From positions 46,824 through 110,823 of the forward strand of contig JAAXWP010000004.1 of assembly GCA_013334925.1 (NCBI GenBank): 64,000 bases of DNA. The letters are read 5' to 3'. Made by a program: the position numbers and the translations under genes. This document shows positions 8,149 through 16,009 of this stretch, piece after piece (within the stretch, counting starts at the first letter, position 1; each line of letters starts with the position of its first letter). The notes beneath the pieces are model-generated. The model worked only from the letters and a program-made list of their open reading frames with translations, was not told the origin of the DNA and did not search any database. Source of the DNA: Chlorobiaceae bacterium (GTDB taxonomy: Bacteria > Bacteroidota > Chlorobiia > Chlorobiales > Chlorobiaceae).

Positions 8149-9396
8149 TCACACCAGCGAAATGCCGTGCAATCGCCTCAGTCTGAATGAGTACCAGAGG
8201 CCTCTGATCAAAAGGAGTAGTACCGATGAAACAATCGCGCCTTCGACACCAAAAAAACAGATCAGCAGGGGGCTTGAAAACAGGCTGAGCAGCAATATCC
8301 TGCTTGAAATAGCGGAGTCCTCCTTTTCGTACCCGCCAAATCTGAGAAACGGAGATGCGAGCTGAAGGACAGAGTTGATGGCGGTACCTATCAGGATGAA
8401 CCATAACCATGGGGTATACACCACCATATCCTGGTGGAACCACCCGAGGATCAGCTCGGCATAATATGCCAGTAACGAAACCGTGATGACATTTATAACC
8501 GCCAGCCACAAAACAGCACCCAGATAACTCTTCCGCATCGTGCTGCTGTCGTGCTCCATAACGGCGATCCTCGAAGAGAGAAAATAGTAGAATGCGGTAT
8601 AATTGATCCAGATGATCGAGGAGATAAAGACCAGCAATGAGAAGGCTCCGACCGTTTCCTCCCCGTTGTAGAAAACCTCCAGGCACCAGAGTTCAACAAC
8701 CGAAATGAAGTTGTTCGCAAGGCCGATGATCAGCATCGGCTTGCCGACAGCCCTCCATTCAGGAATGCACAGCGTCTGTTTCTGCCGGTAAAAATCGAAT
8801 GGAATCGACTTCATGGCCGCCCATGACTGAACTGCGACGCTGAGCGACAGACTCAGCAACAGCAGCCCGATCGCTTCGTATTCATTGATGGAAGATGCAA
8901 ACAGCATCCAGGCAGAGATTCCGGCCAGGAACAGCAGGGATTTCAACAGTTCGGTCGTCAGGCTGGAAGCATACTCGCGATGCATGGCCAACAGTAATCC
9001 CCCCAGAAAGGTGAATACCGAAAGGACGGGAGCCAGAATCATCGCGAAGTATGACTCATGGAGCAGTTTGTCAAGTCGATAATAGCGCAGGCCATAATCG
9101 ACCGCGAGCGAACAGATGCTGGCGCATACGGAGATAAGCAGGCTCAGTTTCAGGTAATGAACGATGTAGCCCTTGATCTTGCCCCACTCTTTCTGTTCGA
9201 GATACCTGGGGATGAAGCGGTTGGAAGCGGCATCGCCTCCGGAGACGAACAGCATCGAACAGATGGTTGCCAGGCTTACCGCCACATTGAAATCGCCAAG
9301 GCCATCGAGGTCAAGATGCCTGGCAAGAAACCTGTTTACCGCGTACTCTGCTGCAAACCCGGCATAGAGTATCAAGAGCAATATGATGTTTGTCAT
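8149..9396 (-). CDS. Polysaccharide/lipid flippase-like membrane transporter (MOP superfamily)
   Basis: A 415-residue protein made almost entirely of hydrophobic segments, about 12 transmembrane helices, with the look of the Wzx-like oligosaccharide flippase branch of the MATE/MOP superfamily (VSLATICSMLFVSGGDAASNRFIPRYLEQ near the start, then paired helices). It lies 78 bases downstream of the unknown 404-residue gene and in the same direction as the radical SAM cluster, so it is probably the last gene of that operon and may carry the cluster's product across the inner membrane. The substrate is inferred only from context; a role in ordinary surface polysaccharide export is the alternative. 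Confidence 0.75.
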   Translation of the reverse strand: MTNIILLLILYAGFAAEYAVNRFLARHLDLDGLGDFNVAVSLATICSMLFVSGGDAASNRFIPRYLEQKEWGKIKGYIVHYLKLSLLISVCASICSLAVDYGLRYYRLDKLLHESYFAMILAPVLSVFTFLGGLLLAMHREYASSLTTELLKSLLFLAGISAWMLFASSINEYEAIGLLLLSLSLSVAVQSWAAMKSIPFDFYRQKQTLCIPEWRAVGKPMLIIGLANNFISVVELWCLEVFYNGEETVGAFSLLVFISSIIWINYTAFYYFLSSRIAVMEHDSSTMRKSYLGAVLWLAVINVITVSLLAYYAELILGWFHQDMVVYTPWLWFILIGTAINSVLQLASPFLRFGGYEKEDSAISSRILLLSLFSSPLLICFFGVEGAIVSSVLLLLIRGLWYSFRLRRLHGISLV

Positions 9397-9474
9397 TTTC
9401 CTCGCTTCAATGGTCCAGAGTTACCCGATGAAAAATCGATGATCATCACTATCGCCCCTGTGCAATCAGCTCGA

Positions 9475-10689
9475 TCAGCAAGGCACCACATTATATGGCT
9501 GGCGGATATTCAGCGTGTAGTTCATCTTCTTTTCGCCATGCCTCTCCCTGTCCGACCTGGTAAAGACGAGACCTGTCGGAAAGTATGGGAGCGTCCCGGT
9601 CATGTAATTCGAGCTGCTTTCCGTGTCGATAATGATCCCCCCCTGCTCTCGAACTTCCCTGAGGATAAAGACGTACAGCAGCATCTCTCGCAGGGCTGCG
9701 GGCACGATCGGCTCCGTGAACCCGATCAGCACGTTCTGCCGGTAGATACGCTCCTGTTCGACGAATGCATGGATGAGTGGACCACAATCACCGATCTCGC
9801 TCAACCACGACTCCACCTCTGCCGGTCTGGTGATGTTATCCAGCTGGTCCGGAAACCGTTGTGCAAACGAGCTCCGAATCTCGTAGATGATGGCTCCGAA
9901 TTTTTTGTCCAGTGAACCGGGAGATGCATCGATGGCAAACTTTCCCATCTCCTGCTGAAGATAGCGGCGCATATCCGCTGCCGCCATTCCAAGCGTAGCA
10001 AACAACCGCTCCGGATCGTGCTGATAGTGCTGATGAACAAAACGGGCCATATCGACGAGGTGCTCCGGATCGCCAGTCTCTCCCGTATAGCACCAGAACT
10101 CCCAGTCAATGGCAACGGCCCGTTCCGTAAGCGGTGCAAAAATCCGGCCCAGAGTGGCGGCCACCTCACGAAATCGCGCTCCTGTCGATGGCAGCAGTTC
10201 ACCCGAGCAGTGCCAAAGCCTGCCGTTGGCATCGCGGCGGTACTGGTAGCTGGGGCAGACCAGACTGATCAGCCGAACCCTTCCCATCCCTGCCTGCCCG
10301 GCAAGCTGCCCCAGAGCCAGGCTGACATACAGGGGATCATTATCCTTTTTGTGCATGGAGGTGATCCCCAGCAGGGTCGGGATGACTTCACGAAGCAGAG
10401 CGACTGCAAGCGGTTCATTCCAGACTTTCCAGCGGCTCACAGCCTCGAAGAGCGGCAGGTAAATTCGCTCCGACAGGGCACGAGCCTTGAGCTTGCTGAT
10501 GAAACCGAGTGTCGGAACGAGCGGTCCGAGAAAGCTCTCCTGCAGGAGCGAAGGAACCGCCTGGTAATATCCCCTCAGGCTTCCCCTGATCGTTGAAGCT
10601 GGCTTTCCCGTAATGCGCTCCAGCAAATCGAGAAGCTGCCTGCTGTGATCAACGCTGGTGATGGCAGGCTCTGAAATCAGCGTATTCAT
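9475..10689 (-). CDS. Protein of unknown family in radical SAM cluster
   Basis: I do not recognise this family. The ATG at 10689 (MNTLISEPAITS) gives 404 residues; another ATG at 10734 would add 15. No signal peptide or transmembrane helix is evident, so it should be cytosolic. Notable segments are RVRLISLVCPSYQYRR (a beta strand ending in CPSY), the Trp/Tyr-rich AIDWEFWCYTGETGDPEHL, and the C-terminal GGIIIDTESSSNYMTGTLPYF. The mix looks like an alpha/beta enzyme. Its start overlaps the end of the aminomutase-like gene by 41 bases, which argues for coupled expression. It could be a peptide- or amino-acid-ligating or tailoring enzyme, but nothing in the sequence proves that. Confidence 0.75.
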   Translation of the reverse strand: MNTLISEPAITSVDHSRQLLDLLERITGKPASTIRGSLRGYYQAVPSLLQESFLGPLVPTLGFISKLKARALSERIYLPLFEAVSRWKVWNEPLAVALLREVIPTLLGITSMHKKDNDPLYVSLALGQLAGQAGMGRVRLISLVCPSYQYRRDANGRLWHCSGELLPSTGARFREVAATLGRIFAPLTERAVAIDWEFWCYTGETGDPEHLVDMARFVHQHYQHDPERLFATLGMAAADMRRYLQQEMGKFAIDASPGSLDKKFGAIIYEIRSSFAQRFPDQLDNITRPAEVESWLSEIGDCGPLIHAFVEQERIYRQNVLIGFTEPIVPAALREMLLYVFILREVREQGGIIIDTESSSNYMTGTLPYFPTGLVFTRSDRERHGEKKMNYTLNIRQPYNVVPC

Positions 10690-11695
10690 ACAATCTGTTT
10701 TCGAAATTTCGAAACGAGTATAACCCGTCATCATGACCGGTCACATAATCGGGTGACAAAGGTACCTTACCGCCACCGTTCTCCAGGTCTATGACCAGTT
10801 GCGGTGTTGCCATGCCGCTCATCCACCCCTGGATGGAACGGATGATCTCATACCCGGTCTCAAGGCTGGTGCGAAAATGACCGGTGCCCTTCACCATGTC
10901 CGGTATGAACAGATAGTATGGCTTTACCCGCATGGCCAGAAGCTTGCGCACCAGTTCCCGCATCACCTCGGAGGAGTCATTGACGCCTCTGAGCAGCACC
11001 GACTGGTTACCGAGCTGTATGCCTGCGTCGGCAAGCATGGCGCAGGCCCGTTGGGACTCGAAGGTGATTTCAGCCGGTGAGTTGAATTGCACGTTGACAT
11101 AGAGCGGATGATACTTTTTCAGCATGTTGCAGAGCGCTGCGTCGATCCGTCCCGGATCCACACAGGGTATGCGGGTACCAATCCTGACAATGTCGATGTG
11201 TGGAACAGTTCGTACAGCCCTGATGATCTCCTCCAGCCGATTAACAGGCAGGGTGAGCGGATCACCTCCCGAGATCAGCACATCGTGCACCTCCTCATGA
11301 CGGTTCAGGTATTCCACGACCCGGGCGATCTCGTCATCGGTGATGGTCGTCGTCCGGTCGCTGATATTACGTTTCCTGGTGCAGAAACGGCAATACATGG
11401 CGCAATTGTTGGTCACCAGAAGCAGCACCCGGTCAGGATACCGGTGGTGCAGTCGGGGAACCGGAGAGTGCTCCTCCTCTCTGAGAGGATCGGTCTGGCC
11501 CGAGTCATCGTTCAGCTCCTCTTCCGATGGTATGCACTGTCTGTAGATCGGGTCACCCGGCGCCCTGATCAGACCCAGGTAATAGGAGGTCACCCTCATG
11601 GGGTATTGCAGGGCAACCCTGCTGATGGCGTCACGCTCATCTTTCGTGAATAACGGCATATCGGCCAGGGCTGGCTGGCGGTACGTGTTGTTCAT
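10649..11695 (-). CDS. Lysine 2,3-aminomutase-like radical SAM/PLP enzyme
   Basis: KamA-family enzyme that would convert L-lysine to beta-lysine. The radical SAM cysteines are at residues 98, 102 and 105 (CAMYCRFC). The PLP-binding Lys is in ENGGGKVPL (about residue 310). The two aspartates that hold the lysine side-chain amine in clostridial lysine aminomutase have counterparts in FIPDMV and VIDLEN, with the same 37-residue spacing and the same 7-residue distance from the second Asp to the PLP Lys. That favours lysine over glutamate. The 348-residue length is near EpmB, but the GGGK box is KAM-like and no EF-P or EpmA gene is nearby. One base separates it from the upstream gene. Confidence 0.88.
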   Translation of the reverse strand: MNNTYRQPALADMPLFTKDERDAISRVALQYPMRVTSYYLGLIRAPGDPIYRQCIPSEEELNDDSGQTDPLREEEHSPVPRLHHRYPDRVLLLVTNNCAMYCRFCTRKRNISDRTTTITDDEIARVVEYLNRHEEVHDVLISGGDPLTLPVNRLEEIIRAVRTVPHIDIVRIGTRIPCVDPGRIDAALCNMLKKYHPLYVNVQFNSPAEITFESQRACAMLADAGIQLGNQSVLLRGVNDSSEVMRELVRKLLAMRVKPYYLFIPDMVKGTGHFRTSLETGYEIIRSIQGWMSGMATPQLVIDLENGGGKVPLSPDYVTGHDDGLYSFRNFENRLYEYADFRACHHQR

Positions 11696-11696
11696 G

Positions 11697-13208
11697 TTAA
11701 AACGCTGCCTCCATGAATGCGGGATCGAAGTTGGGGAATCGATCTCCGAGTTTTGTCGTCACCTGCTCCTGGCTGCCGATGATCTCCTCCATGACCGAAC
11801 AATACTCATCCATGGCCCGATGGAACAGGTATTCGAAATCTCGTTTCGTCAGGTATTTCGTTTCGAAGGTGGGCTGGTTGCGGCCATCATAATGGCTGTA
11901 ATCGGGATCTACCCAGGTGATGCCGTAGTTCTGCCGGTGCTCATAGAAATCGGTGCCTGGATAGCCGACGAGCATGTTGATTTCAGCGGTACTCGACAGG
12001 CCGGTACGCAGCCACTGGCTCATGGTCTCTATGGTCTGGCGGGCGGTCTCATAGGTCTCAAGGGGTGAACCGACAAGCCAGTAAGTATGGGTTTCGATCC
12101 CCTCTTCCCTTGCATATTCAAGCATACGCATCACCTCGGGAATCCGGATATTTTTACCCATGACCCGGAGCAGATCCTGGTTGGCGCTCTCCACTCCCAC
12201 ATGCAGGCATCGGCAGTCTGCCTCACGCAGCCTTCGGAAGTGCTCCCTGGTGGCAGCAGGGTTGACCCTGGTCTGCGCCTCCCAGTGCATTTCCGGTCGC
12301 AACGATCCCATCAGACCGGCGATCTCCATGGCACGGTCGAGATGATGCAGAAAATCGTGGGTCCCCAGGTAAAAGAATCGGCTGTTGCGCCGTTCCATCA
12401 GGTAGGTCACCTCCGCCCTGAACCGATCCGGATTCTGGCCGGTAACCTTCGGCTTCCAGAAATCCGCGCACCAGACGCAGTCGTTGGTGCAGCCGGTAAG
12501 CGGCGTCACCCTGGAGATGGGGATGGAAATCCGGTCGTCTCCACCCAGTTCTTCGCTGCTGAAATTGTCCTCCAGGTGCTCATAGCCGATCATCGGCAAC
12601 AGAGAACGATCCATGCGAGGACGGTCAGGAGTTTTAAGGACTTTCCCATCCCTGATGAAGCTGATCCCCGCGATGCCGTCGATAGGCCTGTTGCGCTCCA
12701 TCGCCCTGAGCAGCTCCAGGGTGGTCTGTTCGCCCTCCCTGTGCACCAGAATGTCAAAGACCGAATCGCGAAGCACCTCCTCATGCCGTACCCAGGCGTG
12801 GTTGCCTCCCAGGATCAGGGGAATATCGGGATACTCCTGCCTGATACGTCGAGCCATGCGATCGGCGGTCCTGTAGCTGGCGGTGATCGAGCTGAACCCG
12901 ATCACGTCGAACTCATCCGCCCGGTTGAGGATTTTCCGGAGAAGCATCTCCTCCCGGTCCACATCGTTGCCCTCCGGACTGATCGGGCCGAAAAAGGAGC
13001 ACTCGATCTCATGCTGTTCAAGGAAGGAGATCAGCTGCAGGAGGCCCAGATGAACCGGCTCCAGCATCCAGAAACGGGAAAAGTCCTGTCCGGTCAGATG
13101 GTTGAACACCGTAAAAGCACGGGATGCAAAAAGATAGAAATAATAGCGGCGCTGCATGTTGCTGAGAGGAACCGCCGGGACCGGCGGAGCGACAAATGCT
13201 ACTTTCAC
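11697..13208 (-). CDS. B12-binding radical SAM enzyme
   Basis: A 503-residue protein with an N-terminal cobalamin-binding-like Rossmann domain (VKVAFVAPP, then VIGFSSITASYRTA and PLILGGNHAW) and a radical SAM domain with the cluster motif CTNDCVWC near residue 240. Family members methylate unreactive carbons or catalyse ring contractions. I start at the GTG at 13208 because a strong AAGGAGG lies just upstream and the GTG overlaps the previous stop as GTGA, the same coupling used elsewhere in this operon. An ATG further upstream would overlap the previous gene by 58 bases. The substrate is unknown; it probably acts on the product of the two SPASM enzymes or of the aminomutase. Confidence 0.88.
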   Translation of the reverse strand: MKVAFVAPPVPAVPLSNMQRRYYFYLFASRAFTVFNHLTGQDFSRFWMLEPVHLGLLQLISFLEQHEIECSFFGPISPEGNDVDREEMLLRKILNRADEFDVIGFSSITASYRTADRMARRIRQEYPDIPLILGGNHAWVRHEEVLRDSVFDILVHREGEQTTLELLRAMERNRPIDGIAGISFIRDGKVLKTPDRPRMDRSLLPMIGYEHLEDNFSSEELGGDDRISIPISRVTPLTGCTNDCVWCADFWKPKVTGQNPDRFRAEVTYLMERRNSRFFYLGTHDFLHHLDRAMEIAGLMGSLRPEMHWEAQTRVNPAATREHFRRLREADCRCLHVGVESANQDLLRVMGKNIRIPEVMRMLEYAREEGIETHTYWLVGSPLETYETARQTIETMSQWLRTGLSSTAEINMLVGYPGTDFYEHRQNYGITWVDPDYSHYDGRNQPTFETKYLTKRDFEYLFHRAMDEYCSVMEEIIGSQEQVTTKLGDRFPNFDPAFMEAAF

Positions 13209-14224
13209 GGTAACCCTCCTTGCTGTGCGTTGAATCTGGCATCTTCCGAAAACCTGAAACATCCCGGATCGGGAGCTGTCAGCGACCCCCAGGTCGCATA
13301 TGCCACCGCGCGGCAGCCATAACAGCGGCTTCGTTCAGGGCAGGCTCCGCAGGAACCTTCCAGGTGATGCTCGATAGTGCGGCACCGCTCGAGGATTTCG
13401 GATTCCCTCCATATGTTCGTTATGGATGCCTGGCGAAGGTCTCCCACTTCGATGTCGATCGATGAACAGGGGCGAATTTTCGCATCGGACCCGATATAGC
13501 AGCCGGCCTTGAGCCGGTTGCATGGGGTGTCTCCTGAAAAAGGCAACGCTGCAGGCTGGTCTGGGGACTCCTGGTCAAGAAACTGTTTCAGATCGGCCGA
13601 AAAAGGAACATTGTCTGCCTGAAGCCCCCCCACCGGAATGGCTCGGTTCAACACGAACCCGCAGCCGTTCTGCCCAGCGAAGCTGCGCAAGTCAGGCAGT
13701 GCCGTGAAGTTCGACCTCGAACCCAGCGAATGGATGGCGAACATGGGATACCGGTCCGCATGGTATCCGGCCGCACGGAGATGATCCAGCGCTTCAAAGA
13801 CGATCCGCAGCTCCCCCTGGCCGCCTGACAAAGCGGTGAACTCCCCGGCATCGAGGGTGGTGAGGCTGATCGCCACGTTGATCCGGGCATCGGCCAGCTT
13901 CCCGGCAATCTCCCTGTCGATCAGGGAACCGTTGGTGACCAGCTGCACCATCACGTCGTTTTCGCGAAGATAGCCCACCACATCCCAGAAGTGAGGGTAA
14001 AGCAGTGCCTCACCCCCCGTCAGTTCGACCTTGCGTAAACCCAGGGGTAGCGATTCAGTCAGGGCATTGCGGAGCAGCCCATAATCCAGATCGGTGACCG
14101 GATAGTCCTTTTTGGAGCAGAATACGCAGGTGAAGTTGCACCGGGTCGTGCAGGAAACCGTGAGGTACGCAAGCTGCCCGGGATACTCCAGATCGGTATA
14201 CTCCCAGGGATTCACCTTGTTCAT
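13205..14224 (-). CDS. Radical SAM/SPASM enzyme B
   Basis: A 339-residue radical SAM protein. The 4Fe-4S SAM cluster Cys are at 29, 33 and 36 (CNFTCVFC), the GGEAL motif contacts SAM, and a C-terminal Cys-rich SPASM domain is visible (CGACPERSRCYGC, then PGCF) that would bind auxiliary Fe-S clusters. SPASM enzymes usually modify peptides, making thioether or C-C crosslinks, or tailor small molecules. It begins at an ATG overlapping the stop of enzyme A (ATGA), with an AAGGAGGGGG Shine-Dalgarno, and ends overlapping the B12 enzyme (GTGA). Related to enzyme A only in fold; the two have diverged clearly. Confidence 0.88.
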   Translation of the reverse strand: MNKVNPWEYTDLEYPGQLAYLTVSCTTRCNFTCVFCSKKDYPVTDLDYGLLRNALTESLPLGLRKVELTGGEALLYPHFWDVVGYLRENDVMVQLVTNGSLIDREIAGKLADARINVAISLTTLDAGEFTALSGGQGELRIVFEALDHLRAAGYHADRYPMFAIHSLGSRSNFTALPDLRSFAGQNGCGFVLNRAIPVGGLQADNVPFSADLKQFLDQESPDQPAALPFSGDTPCNRLKAGCYIGSDAKIRPCSSIDIEVGDLRQASITNIWRESEILERCRTIEHHLEGSCGACPERSRCYGCRAVAYATWGSLTAPDPGCFRFSEDARFNAQQGGLP

Positions 14225-15294
14225 ATCCCCCTCCTTCCTGCGGCTTCGGCAATCGAGCTGGCTGTAAGGTCATAGGCAAAGGTGTTGAACGAACCGGTTT
14301 TACGATGCACGATCGAGAAACAGGTGTTGTGGCAGCGACCCGGACCTTCCAGGTGCTGGCATTCCCCGCAGATTTCGGGAGTTTCGGTCAGCGCCCGGTT
14401 GCGCAGCCCGCTCGTCTCCCAGATTTCCCGAAGGGACGATTCGTTCAGGTTGCCGATAGCTTCGGTATGGTCCCAGAAACCGCAGAGCAGAACCTCACCC
14501 GTGGCATTGATATGGACGTAATCGAAGCCGCAGGTGCACTCTACCCAGATGACGTTCGGATGGGGTTCGTACAGTTCGGGATATTTGCAGCGAACCAGCG
14601 GAGAACAGCAGATCCGCACCGGAATCCTGCCGTTTCTTGCCCTGGCGGTCAGTCGCCTGAACACCTCGCTCATTTCGTCAAGTCCCGGATAGAGATCGAA
14701 AACCTCGTCATAGGTCGCGACCAGACATTGCGCGCCCATGATGATATTCCGGCCGGGGGTGGCTACGCTTTCCGCATAATCGTAGAGCGCTTCGAGCTCA
14801 TGGAGGTTGTGGCGCGTCACTGTCGCTTCGAGGTCGACGGTTATGCCCTGATCTGCAAGGGAGAGTGCGTTTGCCTTGAGACGCGCCAGGTTTTCCGCGC
14901 CGCTCCCTTCGGGAAAACCGCGCAGGAACTCGAGCTTTTCGGGGTCGAGGGTATCGAAGGAGACACAGGCAAACTGCAGACCGCCTTCAGCCAGTCTTCT
15001 CGACCATTCGGGATCGATGTTCCTGCAATTCGTGTTGATACGGTTTTTGACACCAAACCTGTTGGCGATCTCCATGGCCTGAAGCAGGTAGTGCTTCGAC
15101 TTTTCGGACATGGTGACCTCGCCGCCCTCGAACCAGACCCATTCAGGCCGTTCCTCCGCGAGGGTTTTTTCGACGATTTCAAGGGGAAGCCACTGGTTGA
15201 ACTCCGGAAGGTCCTGGTCATACGCGCAATAGACACACCTCGCATTGCACGCCTGAAGTAACTGGAATTCAATGACCCTGAACTTGCTACTCAT
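14221..15294 (-). CDS. Radical SAM/SPASM-like enzyme A
   Basis: A 357-residue radical SAM enzyme with cluster Cys at 16, 20 and 23 (CNARCVYC) and a GGEVT motif. The C-terminal half has many cysteines (RICCSPLVRC, ECTCGF, LLCGFWD, CGECQHLEGPGRCHNTC), consistent with a SPASM or Twitch domain holding auxiliary Fe-S clusters. The start at 15294 is supported by AGGAGG eight bases upstream; an in-frame ATG at 15450 would add 52 poor-looking residues. It is the first large gene of the six-gene minus-strand cluster, and its ATG overlaps the stop of a 29-codon reading frame. Confidence 0.87.
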   Translation of the reverse strand: MSSKFRVIEFQLLQACNARCVYCAYDQDLPEFNQWLPLEIVEKTLAEERPEWVWFEGGEVTMSEKSKHYLLQAMEIANRFGVKNRINTNCRNIDPEWSRRLAEGGLQFACVSFDTLDPEKLEFLRGFPEGSGAENLARLKANALSLADQGITVDLEATVTRHNLHELEALYDYAESVATPGRNIIMGAQCLVATYDEVFDLYPGLDEMSEVFRRLTARARNGRIPVRICCSPLVRCKYPELYEPHPNVIWVECTCGFDYVHINATGEVLLCGFWDHTEAIGNLNESSLREIWETSGLRNRALTETPEICGECQHLEGPGRCHNTCFSIVHRKTGSFNTFAYDLTASSIAEAAGRRGI

Positions 15295-15380
15295 GCTTCT
15301 GACCTCCTGTTGATAGGGGTTGGGGTAAGAGGAGAGGCTGATACAAAGCATATGTAAGGAACAAGGGAAGCGGACATCAT
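15291..15380 (-). CDS. Possible 29-residue peptide upstream of the radical SAM operon
   Basis: A short frame starts with two Met codons (MMSASLVPYICF...) and ends in ...INRRSEA, its TGA overlapping the ATG of radical SAM enzyme A (ATGA), the same junction type seen between the later genes. It contains one Cys and several Ser, Thr and Pro residues. It could be a leader peptide or a very short precursor for the SPASM enzymes. Against it: no clear Shine-Dalgarno of its own, no Gly-Gly or similar leader signal, and the Arg-Arg codons are forced by the next gene's AGGAGG. Chance is a real possibility. Confidence 0.25.
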   Translation of the reverse strand: MMSASLVPYICFVSASPLTPTPINRRSEA

Positions 15381-15972
15381 AGCGTTCCGGGCAAAATCCG
15401 AACACCCGGCGATAAATGGTCTGTCCTGTGAATATGCAGCTTCCTTTCAACTAAACAGGCAACACCGATTTTACCTGAAAATCAACGATCCTGCGTCACT
15501 TGAATACGTTACAGGCACAAACACCGACGATTATCTTTCGTAATTTATTCACAAACAAACATACACGTAAATCACACGCAGGACCGTAAAAGCAACTCTT
15601 GAATATATTTATTTATACTCTCGTCATCAAGACACAATATGCACTTAACGCCTATACAGCCGATTGCGACGTAAAATAACTGAAGGTGCTCACCTGTCGG
15701 TAAAAACACCCTTTTCACCTGTGGCAAGGCCCACGCTCAGGAGTTATCACTCCGGCAATTAAAAGTGTCAATCCGGTTTGTTATTGGTTGTCATTCTTCG
15801 CTTCGCTCAGGAGGACAGAGTGGGCCTGGAATACTTTTGCATCCTTTAGTCGCCGATGTGATAATGCAAAAAAACCTGAGCTGTTCGGCGTCGAGGGCGA
15901 ACGATCGCAACCTCGATCGTCGCGAGCCGTGGAGCTGCTGAATGGCGTATTGCTGAAATGAGAGAACGGCAA
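15381..15972. other. Long intergenic region before the radical SAM operon
   Basis: About 590 bases with no convincing gene. The part near 15500-15620 is AT-rich and may hold the operon promoter, but I see no clear -35/-10 pair. At 15789-15810 a stretch reading TCATTCTTCGCTTCGCTCAGG resembles the ends of the palindromic element at 52614-52708. A small perfect palindrome (ACGATCG pairing with CGATCGT) sits at 15901-15920. Confidence 0.5.
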
Positions 15973-15998
15973 CAGGGGCGCGGCTTGCCATGCCCCTG
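15973..15998 (-). terminator. Hairpin downstream of sppA
   Basis: CAGGGGC and GCCCCTG form a 7-bp stem 12 bases beyond the sppA stop, followed on the minus strand by TTGCCGTT. The T-run is poor, so it is a weak intrinsic terminator or an mRNA-protecting stem. Confidence 0.45.
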
Positions 15999-16009
15999 CC
16001 GGTGACGGG

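Follow-up and report, generated by a model that had tools for sequence, protein, structure and literature searches.

Which product is made by a gene cluster that joins a lysine 2,3-aminomutase-like enzyme with three other radical S-adenosylmethionine (SAM) enzymes, a protein without annotation and a flippase? Such a cassette lies in the window, which is the whole stretch of 64,000 nucleotides analysed here from a Chlorobiaceae bacterium (assembly GCA_013334925.1, contig JAAXWP010000004.1, positions 46,824 to 110,823). It consists of six co-directional open reading frames (ORFs) on the minus strand, in the 5' to 3' order sp1-sp2-b12-kamA-P2-flip, spanning 8149-15294. The ORFs and their Pfam matches agree with the types named in the original prediction, namely two SPASM proteins, a B12-binding protein, a KamA-like enzyme, an unknown protein of 404 residues and a flippase. 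Our data indicate that the cassette is a real, conserved, accessory biosynthetic unit with one new enzyme family, P2. We give about an even chance to the six genes forming one pathway, in which beta-lysine from KamA would pass to P2, be modified by the radical SAM enzymes and be exported by the flippase. The features are as follows.

sp1: 14221..15294, minus strand, radical SAM/SPASM protein of 357 residues, gene 1 of the cassette (Pfam PF04055 and PF13186)
Shine-Dalgarno-like AGGAGG of sp1: 15303..15308, minus strand, read from the sequence
sp2: 13205..14224, minus strand, radical SAM/SPASM protein of 339 residues (Pfam PF04055 and PF13186)
b12: 11697..13208, minus strand, B12-binding radical SAM protein of 503 residues from GTG 13208 (Pfam PF02310 and PF04055)
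kamA: 10649..11695, minus strand, lysine 2,3-aminomutase-like radical SAM enzyme of 348 residues (Pfam Radical_SAM and LAM_C)
P2: 9475..10689, minus strand, new family, 404 residues, predicted class I aminoacyl-tRNA-synthetase-like fold
flip: 8149..9396, minus strand, MOP-type flippase of 415 residues

A conserved and accessory six-gene unit

It was found that the P2 profile matches four of the 86 genomes of the window's family (G000, which holds the window, G012, G017 and G144), and the sp1 profile matches five, all four P2 genomes among them; P2 is present only beside sp1. In a wider sample of the phylum the counts were 4 of 394 genomes for P2 and 5 of 394 for sp1. The cassette is accessory, because both sp1 and P2 are missing from 81 of the 86 family genomes. 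Comparison by tblastn gave the full order sp1-sp2-b12-kamA-P2-flip in G017, the same six-gene order in G012 across two contigs that share an identical overlap of 283 bases, and genes one to five in order in G144, where the contig end falls inside P2. The original prediction had made its case depend on the genes staying together in other Chlorobi, and three further family genomes do carry the unit. Gene order is kept at three genomic sites, as far as the contigs extend: G000 and G017 carry the cassette at a common sppA/yifB site, that of G012 lies between an upstream short-chain dehydrogenase and a downstream GNAT gene, and the upstream flank of G144 holds an iron alcohol dehydrogenase (Fe-ADH) gene and another radical SAM gene. 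Differences between the compared cassette genes fall mostly at third codon positions. The 900 bases 5' of sp1 in the four genomes are not alike and hold no common small ORF, therefore the six genes are the conserved unit. The fifth sp1 genome, G022, carries a decayed cassette (L039, 8118-10368) with an intact sp1, 39 residues of sp2 and then an IS200-like transposase gene; the remaining four genes were not found within the 19 kb read.

The limits of the unit can be set more narrowly than 8149..15380, the extent first proposed. Its lower end stands, with genes from 8149. The start of sp1 lies at 15294, as the AGGAGG at 15308-15303 is in place and the orthologues in G012, G017 and G144 begin at the same Met; sp1 is therefore 357 residues long, and the feature extends to 15294 rather than 15380. 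The GTG start of b12 at 13208 is preceded by AAGGAGG. The tight junctions described earlier hold as well: sp1/sp2 overlap in ATGA, sp2/b12 in GTGA, b12 and kamA are 1 base apart, and the longest gap within the cassette is the 78 bases that separate P2 from the flippase. The overlap of kamA and P2 is 41 bases if P2 starts at the Met at 10689; that Met has no clear ribosome site, and P2 may start further upstream. Of the 37 Radical_SAM (Pfam) matches in the whole genome, four fall in the cassette. A riboswitch search of the window and of L024, L027 and L006 gave no Rfam match at the gathering score, and promoter and terminator scans gave scores near chance.

KamA and the new protein family P2

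The kamA product scores 267 against a cut-off of 199 bits for TIGR00238 (NCBIfam) and matches the lysine 2,3-aminomutase of PDB entry 2a5h with an E-value of 1.4e-97. Like the known enzymes (KamA/AblA), it keeps the CxxxCxxC motif (C98-C102-C105), and D266, D303 and K310 align with D293, D330 and K337 of 2a5h; we take K310 to be the lysine that carries pyridoxal phosphate and the two aspartates to be those that meet the lysine side chain. The same residues are kept in G012, G017 and G144 and in P0026, a P2 homologue which is a natural KamA-P2 fusion. Thus, KamA would be expected from its residues to make free beta-lysine. It differs from the known enzymes in lacking the last part, LAM_C being matched over positions 2-55 of 127 only, in lying within a six-gene unit and in being fused to P2 in a relative. 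The sole further KamA match in the genome is 27% identical (E 3.9e-6). In the genome the genX/EpmA model gives only matches below cut-off (best 236 vs 287 bits), and the best of them is probably lysyl-tRNA synthetase.

The protein called unrecognised in the original prediction reaches the cut-off of no family in Pfam or NCBIfam; what the prediction missed is the predicted class I aminoacyl-tRNA-synthetase-like fold and the fusion with KamA in one relative. A P2 protein (P0011) also occurs in the cultured Prosthecochloris sp. GSB1. The matches of P2 to Pfam PF00227 (E 0.04-0.05) and to an NCBIfam dehydrogenase (E 0.1) were below cut-off and were taken as chance. A direct search of PDB sequences gave nothing convincing, and among Pfam matches at E<=10 neither PF16715, the cyclodipeptide synthase (CDPS) family, nor PF05141, the isonitrile synthase family, was present. 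Both protein searches with P2 scored only about 8000 candidates, those with the most words in common with it. The AlphaFold2 model (predicted local distance difference test, pLDDT, 84.4; predicted template modelling score, pTM, 0.87) resembles in Foldseek/VIA the fold of CDPS, isonitrile synthases and tyrosyl-tRNA synthetase. CDPS are the top Foldseek matches, and P2 is predicted to share their Rossmann fold; no CDPS stands among the 50 matches that VIA listed for the domain model, which does not exclude that family. Unlike CDPS, P2 also has about 130 N-terminal residues that form a helical domain in the model. Of the class I synthetase motifs HIGH and KMSKS, the patterns HxGH and KxSK[ST] occur in one of 21 P2 sequences each and neither is conserved. 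P2 has no basic helix after strand 2, the helix proposed for tRNA binding in some CDPS. Overall charge does not separate the families, the median isoelectric points being 6.4 for P2, 6.7 for CDPS and 6.5 for PvcA.

In 247 genomes of the phylum the PF16715 model matched none, though its control was also silent; the model does detect a CDPS in one of six plasmid records. PF05141 was found in one of the 247 genomes. A 561-residue ORF in G103 (L010, 622-2307) begins with a part that looks TetR-like by eye and continues with a PF05141 isonitrile synthase domain, and two Hymenobacter plasmids carry isonitrile synthase domains 83% identical to that of this ORF. Apart from P0026, a metagenome protein of 696 residues (P0027) combines the P2 domain with about 265 N-terminal residues without a Pfam match.

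A proposed beta-lysine pathway and its rivals

In the proposed pathway KamA would convert lysine to beta-lysine and hand it directly to P2. P2 would accept beta-lysine in free form, in the way that isonitrile synthases use free tyrosine or tryptophan, and would condense it with another small molecule, no tRNA being involved. The conjugate would then be modified by sp1, sp2 and b12 and leave the cell via the flippase. The KamA-P2 fusion and the kamA/P2 overlap suggest that P2 uses the product of the aminomutase. Free beta-lysine is preferred over an aminoacyl-tRNA because the basic helix is missing and no EpmA-type enzyme was found above cut-off; thus, P2 most likely acts on free beta-lysine, and the beta-lysine reading of the cassette is likely. 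Isonitrile synthases provide a precedent for the use of free amino acids, according to PMC7949033 and PMC5974471. The original prediction spoke of a dedicated beta-lysine or peptide product with its own export. A dedicated and exported beta-lysine pathway is the best reading, because the unit is kept in three other family genomes, KamA keeps its lysine-type residues and the literature searched showed no known pathway with this set; the peptide half is not supported, as no small ORF is shared upstream in the four genomes, although a distant precursor may exist. The original prediction, too, knew of no pathway with this exact set, and none is described in the titles and abstract starts found in the open-access literature, subscription papers being mostly outside the search.

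Several observations weigh against this pathway. Its sparse distribution in the family is one. The kamA alignment stops at residue 366 of 416 of 2a5h, and the score for the AblA equivalog TIGR03820 is 392 against a cut-off of 525 bits. None of sp1, sp2 and b12 reaches an NCBIfam cut-off among the matches listed, at most 25 each for sp1 and sp2. The superposition of P2 is modest, with a TM-score by query of about 0.4 at best. Profiles were compared with eight CDPS and eight isonitrile synthase sequences, the partial CDPS gene L033 being left out, and the comparison gave no proof of homology to either family: the score with CDPS was 15.4 against a shuffled mean of 15.9 (33 of 60 column-shuffled profiles as high), and with isonitrile synthases 18.4 against 16.6 (18 of 60 as high). 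The case for a common mechanism therefore depends on the predicted fold, which superposes modestly. In an ungapped register test of nine P2 segments the expected CDPS register came first only in two C-terminal segments, and the expected PvcA register only in two strand-1 segments. The missing basic helix is not decisive, because some CDPS bind tRNA through other surfaces, according to a passage in PMC7566563.

It is possible, though we consider it unlikely, that P2 works as a CDPS, which would pass an amino acid from aminoacyl-tRNA onto Cys145 and then to beta-lysine, with the dipeptide modified by the SPASM and B12 radical SAM enzymes. Such a role would suit the top Foldseek matches and three residues that are invariant in the P2 family: Cys145 follows strand 1, where CDPS have the catalytic Ser, and Tyr339 and Tyr362 lie near the catalytic tyrosine positions Y178 and Y202 (CDPS residues after a passage in PMC13062777), all in a register set by hand and mostly unsupported by the offset test. 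In that test a conserved C-terminal segment of P2 was best of all offsets on the CDPS C-terminal strand (z 3.4), but the expected strand-1 register did not rank among the best four CDPS offsets. The Tyr339/Y178 register ranked second in one segment and below the best four in two more, and the Tyr362/Y202 register was likewise not among the best four. P2 has Leu343 at the position of CDPS Glu182, lacks the basic helix and has a profile no better than shuffles, and characterised CDPS up to 2018 are reported in a passage of PMC5816076 not to use lysine.

A ribosomally synthesized and post-translationally modified peptide (RiPP) is improbable as the product; here the SPASM pair, the B12 enzyme and KamA would mature a precursor encoded elsewhere, with P2 as an accessory. 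RiPP pathways often contain SPASM and B12 radical SAM enzymes, and the nearest NCBIfam model of b12 is the RiPP enzyme ApyD, though with 122 against a cut-off of 750 bits. The 900 bases upstream of sp1 offer no shared precursor, a distant one being still possible; no gap within the cassette exceeds 78 bases, and the residues at the lysine site of KamA suit free lysine. The two best-known uses of KamA-family enzymes are the osmolyte N-acetyl-beta-lysine and the beta-lysylation of elongation factor P (EF-P), and it is highly improbable that kamA serves one of these with unrelated neighbours. A GNAT acetyltransferase gene does adjoin the G012 cassette, on the strand opposite to the flippase, but no acetyltransferase is in the shared unit (AblB was not searched for genome-wide), kamA is itself part of the conserved unit of six genes, a relative has it fused to P2, and the genX/EpmA matches stay below cut-off. 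The EpmB-EpmA pair for EF-P also combines a KamA-family enzyme with a tRNA-synthetase-like one; EpmA is class II and lysyl-tRNA-synthetase-like, whereas P2 is predicted to be class I-like. Blasticidin-type pathways likewise cluster a KamA-family aminomutase with a radical SAM enzyme, and sp2 weakly matches cytosylglucuronate decarboxylase (E 1.3e-4), but their gene set is another one and no nucleoside genes were seen in the six-gene unit.

As a doubtful extension, the cassette could be an oxygen-free pathway of isonitrile type. P2, as a further branch of the CDPS/isonitrile synthase superfamily, would convert one of the amino groups of beta-lysine to a reactive group that binds metal, the three radical SAM enzymes would replace the iron (Fe)/2-oxoglutarate oxygenase tailoring of aerobes, and a metal-binding compound would be exported. 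The cassette differs from the isonitrile synthase systems (PvcA/PIsnA) in having KamA as partner and no Fe/2-oxoglutarate oxygenase. Isonitrile synthases form the isonitrile with ribulose 5-phosphate.

The superfamily is known for aminoacyl-tRNA synthetases, CDPS and isonitrile synthases, and if P2 acts on beta-lysine without tRNA, a further reaction type would be added to it. A protein family without annotation has a predicted fold, which makes its chemistry testable, and both gene order and a natural fusion connect a lysine 2,3-aminomutase with a synthetase-like enzyme of class I. The cassette also suggests that anaerobic phototrophs may secrete a small molecule whose assembly is largely the work of oxygen-sensitive radical enzymes.

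The radical SAM enzymes, the flippase and the flanks

Judging from their domains alone, sp1, sp2 and b12 would act on the P2 conjugate. Weak viperin-like matches of sp1 and sp2 were taken as general radical SAM similarity, and a role as defence proteins was set aside. The first enzyme, sp1, has 48 database relatives, 16 of them at 67-94% identity, 18 at 55-63%, 12 at 48-52%, one at 39% and one fragment; the 55-63% group includes P0054, named Spirochaetales, and P0055, named Deltaproteobacteria, so that relatives extend to these groups. Viral contigs gave few pattern matches to P2 and sp1 and no confirmed relative, and plasmids gave no sp1 match at 1e-20.

Upstream of the cassette, window positions 15295-16009 are intergenic, with a GC content of 0.48 against 0.56 for the window and no shared ORF. 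In G017 a capsule-synthesis-type gene (PF09587; L006, 4005-5099) lies between sppA and the cassette, and there is none at that place in the window. The flippase of the window has no Pfam match even at E<=10, and two of its orthologues are above the cut-offs, for PF01943 with 31.6 against 28.2 and for MatE (PF01554) with 32.2 against 24.9. The flippase orthologues are 62-66% identical.

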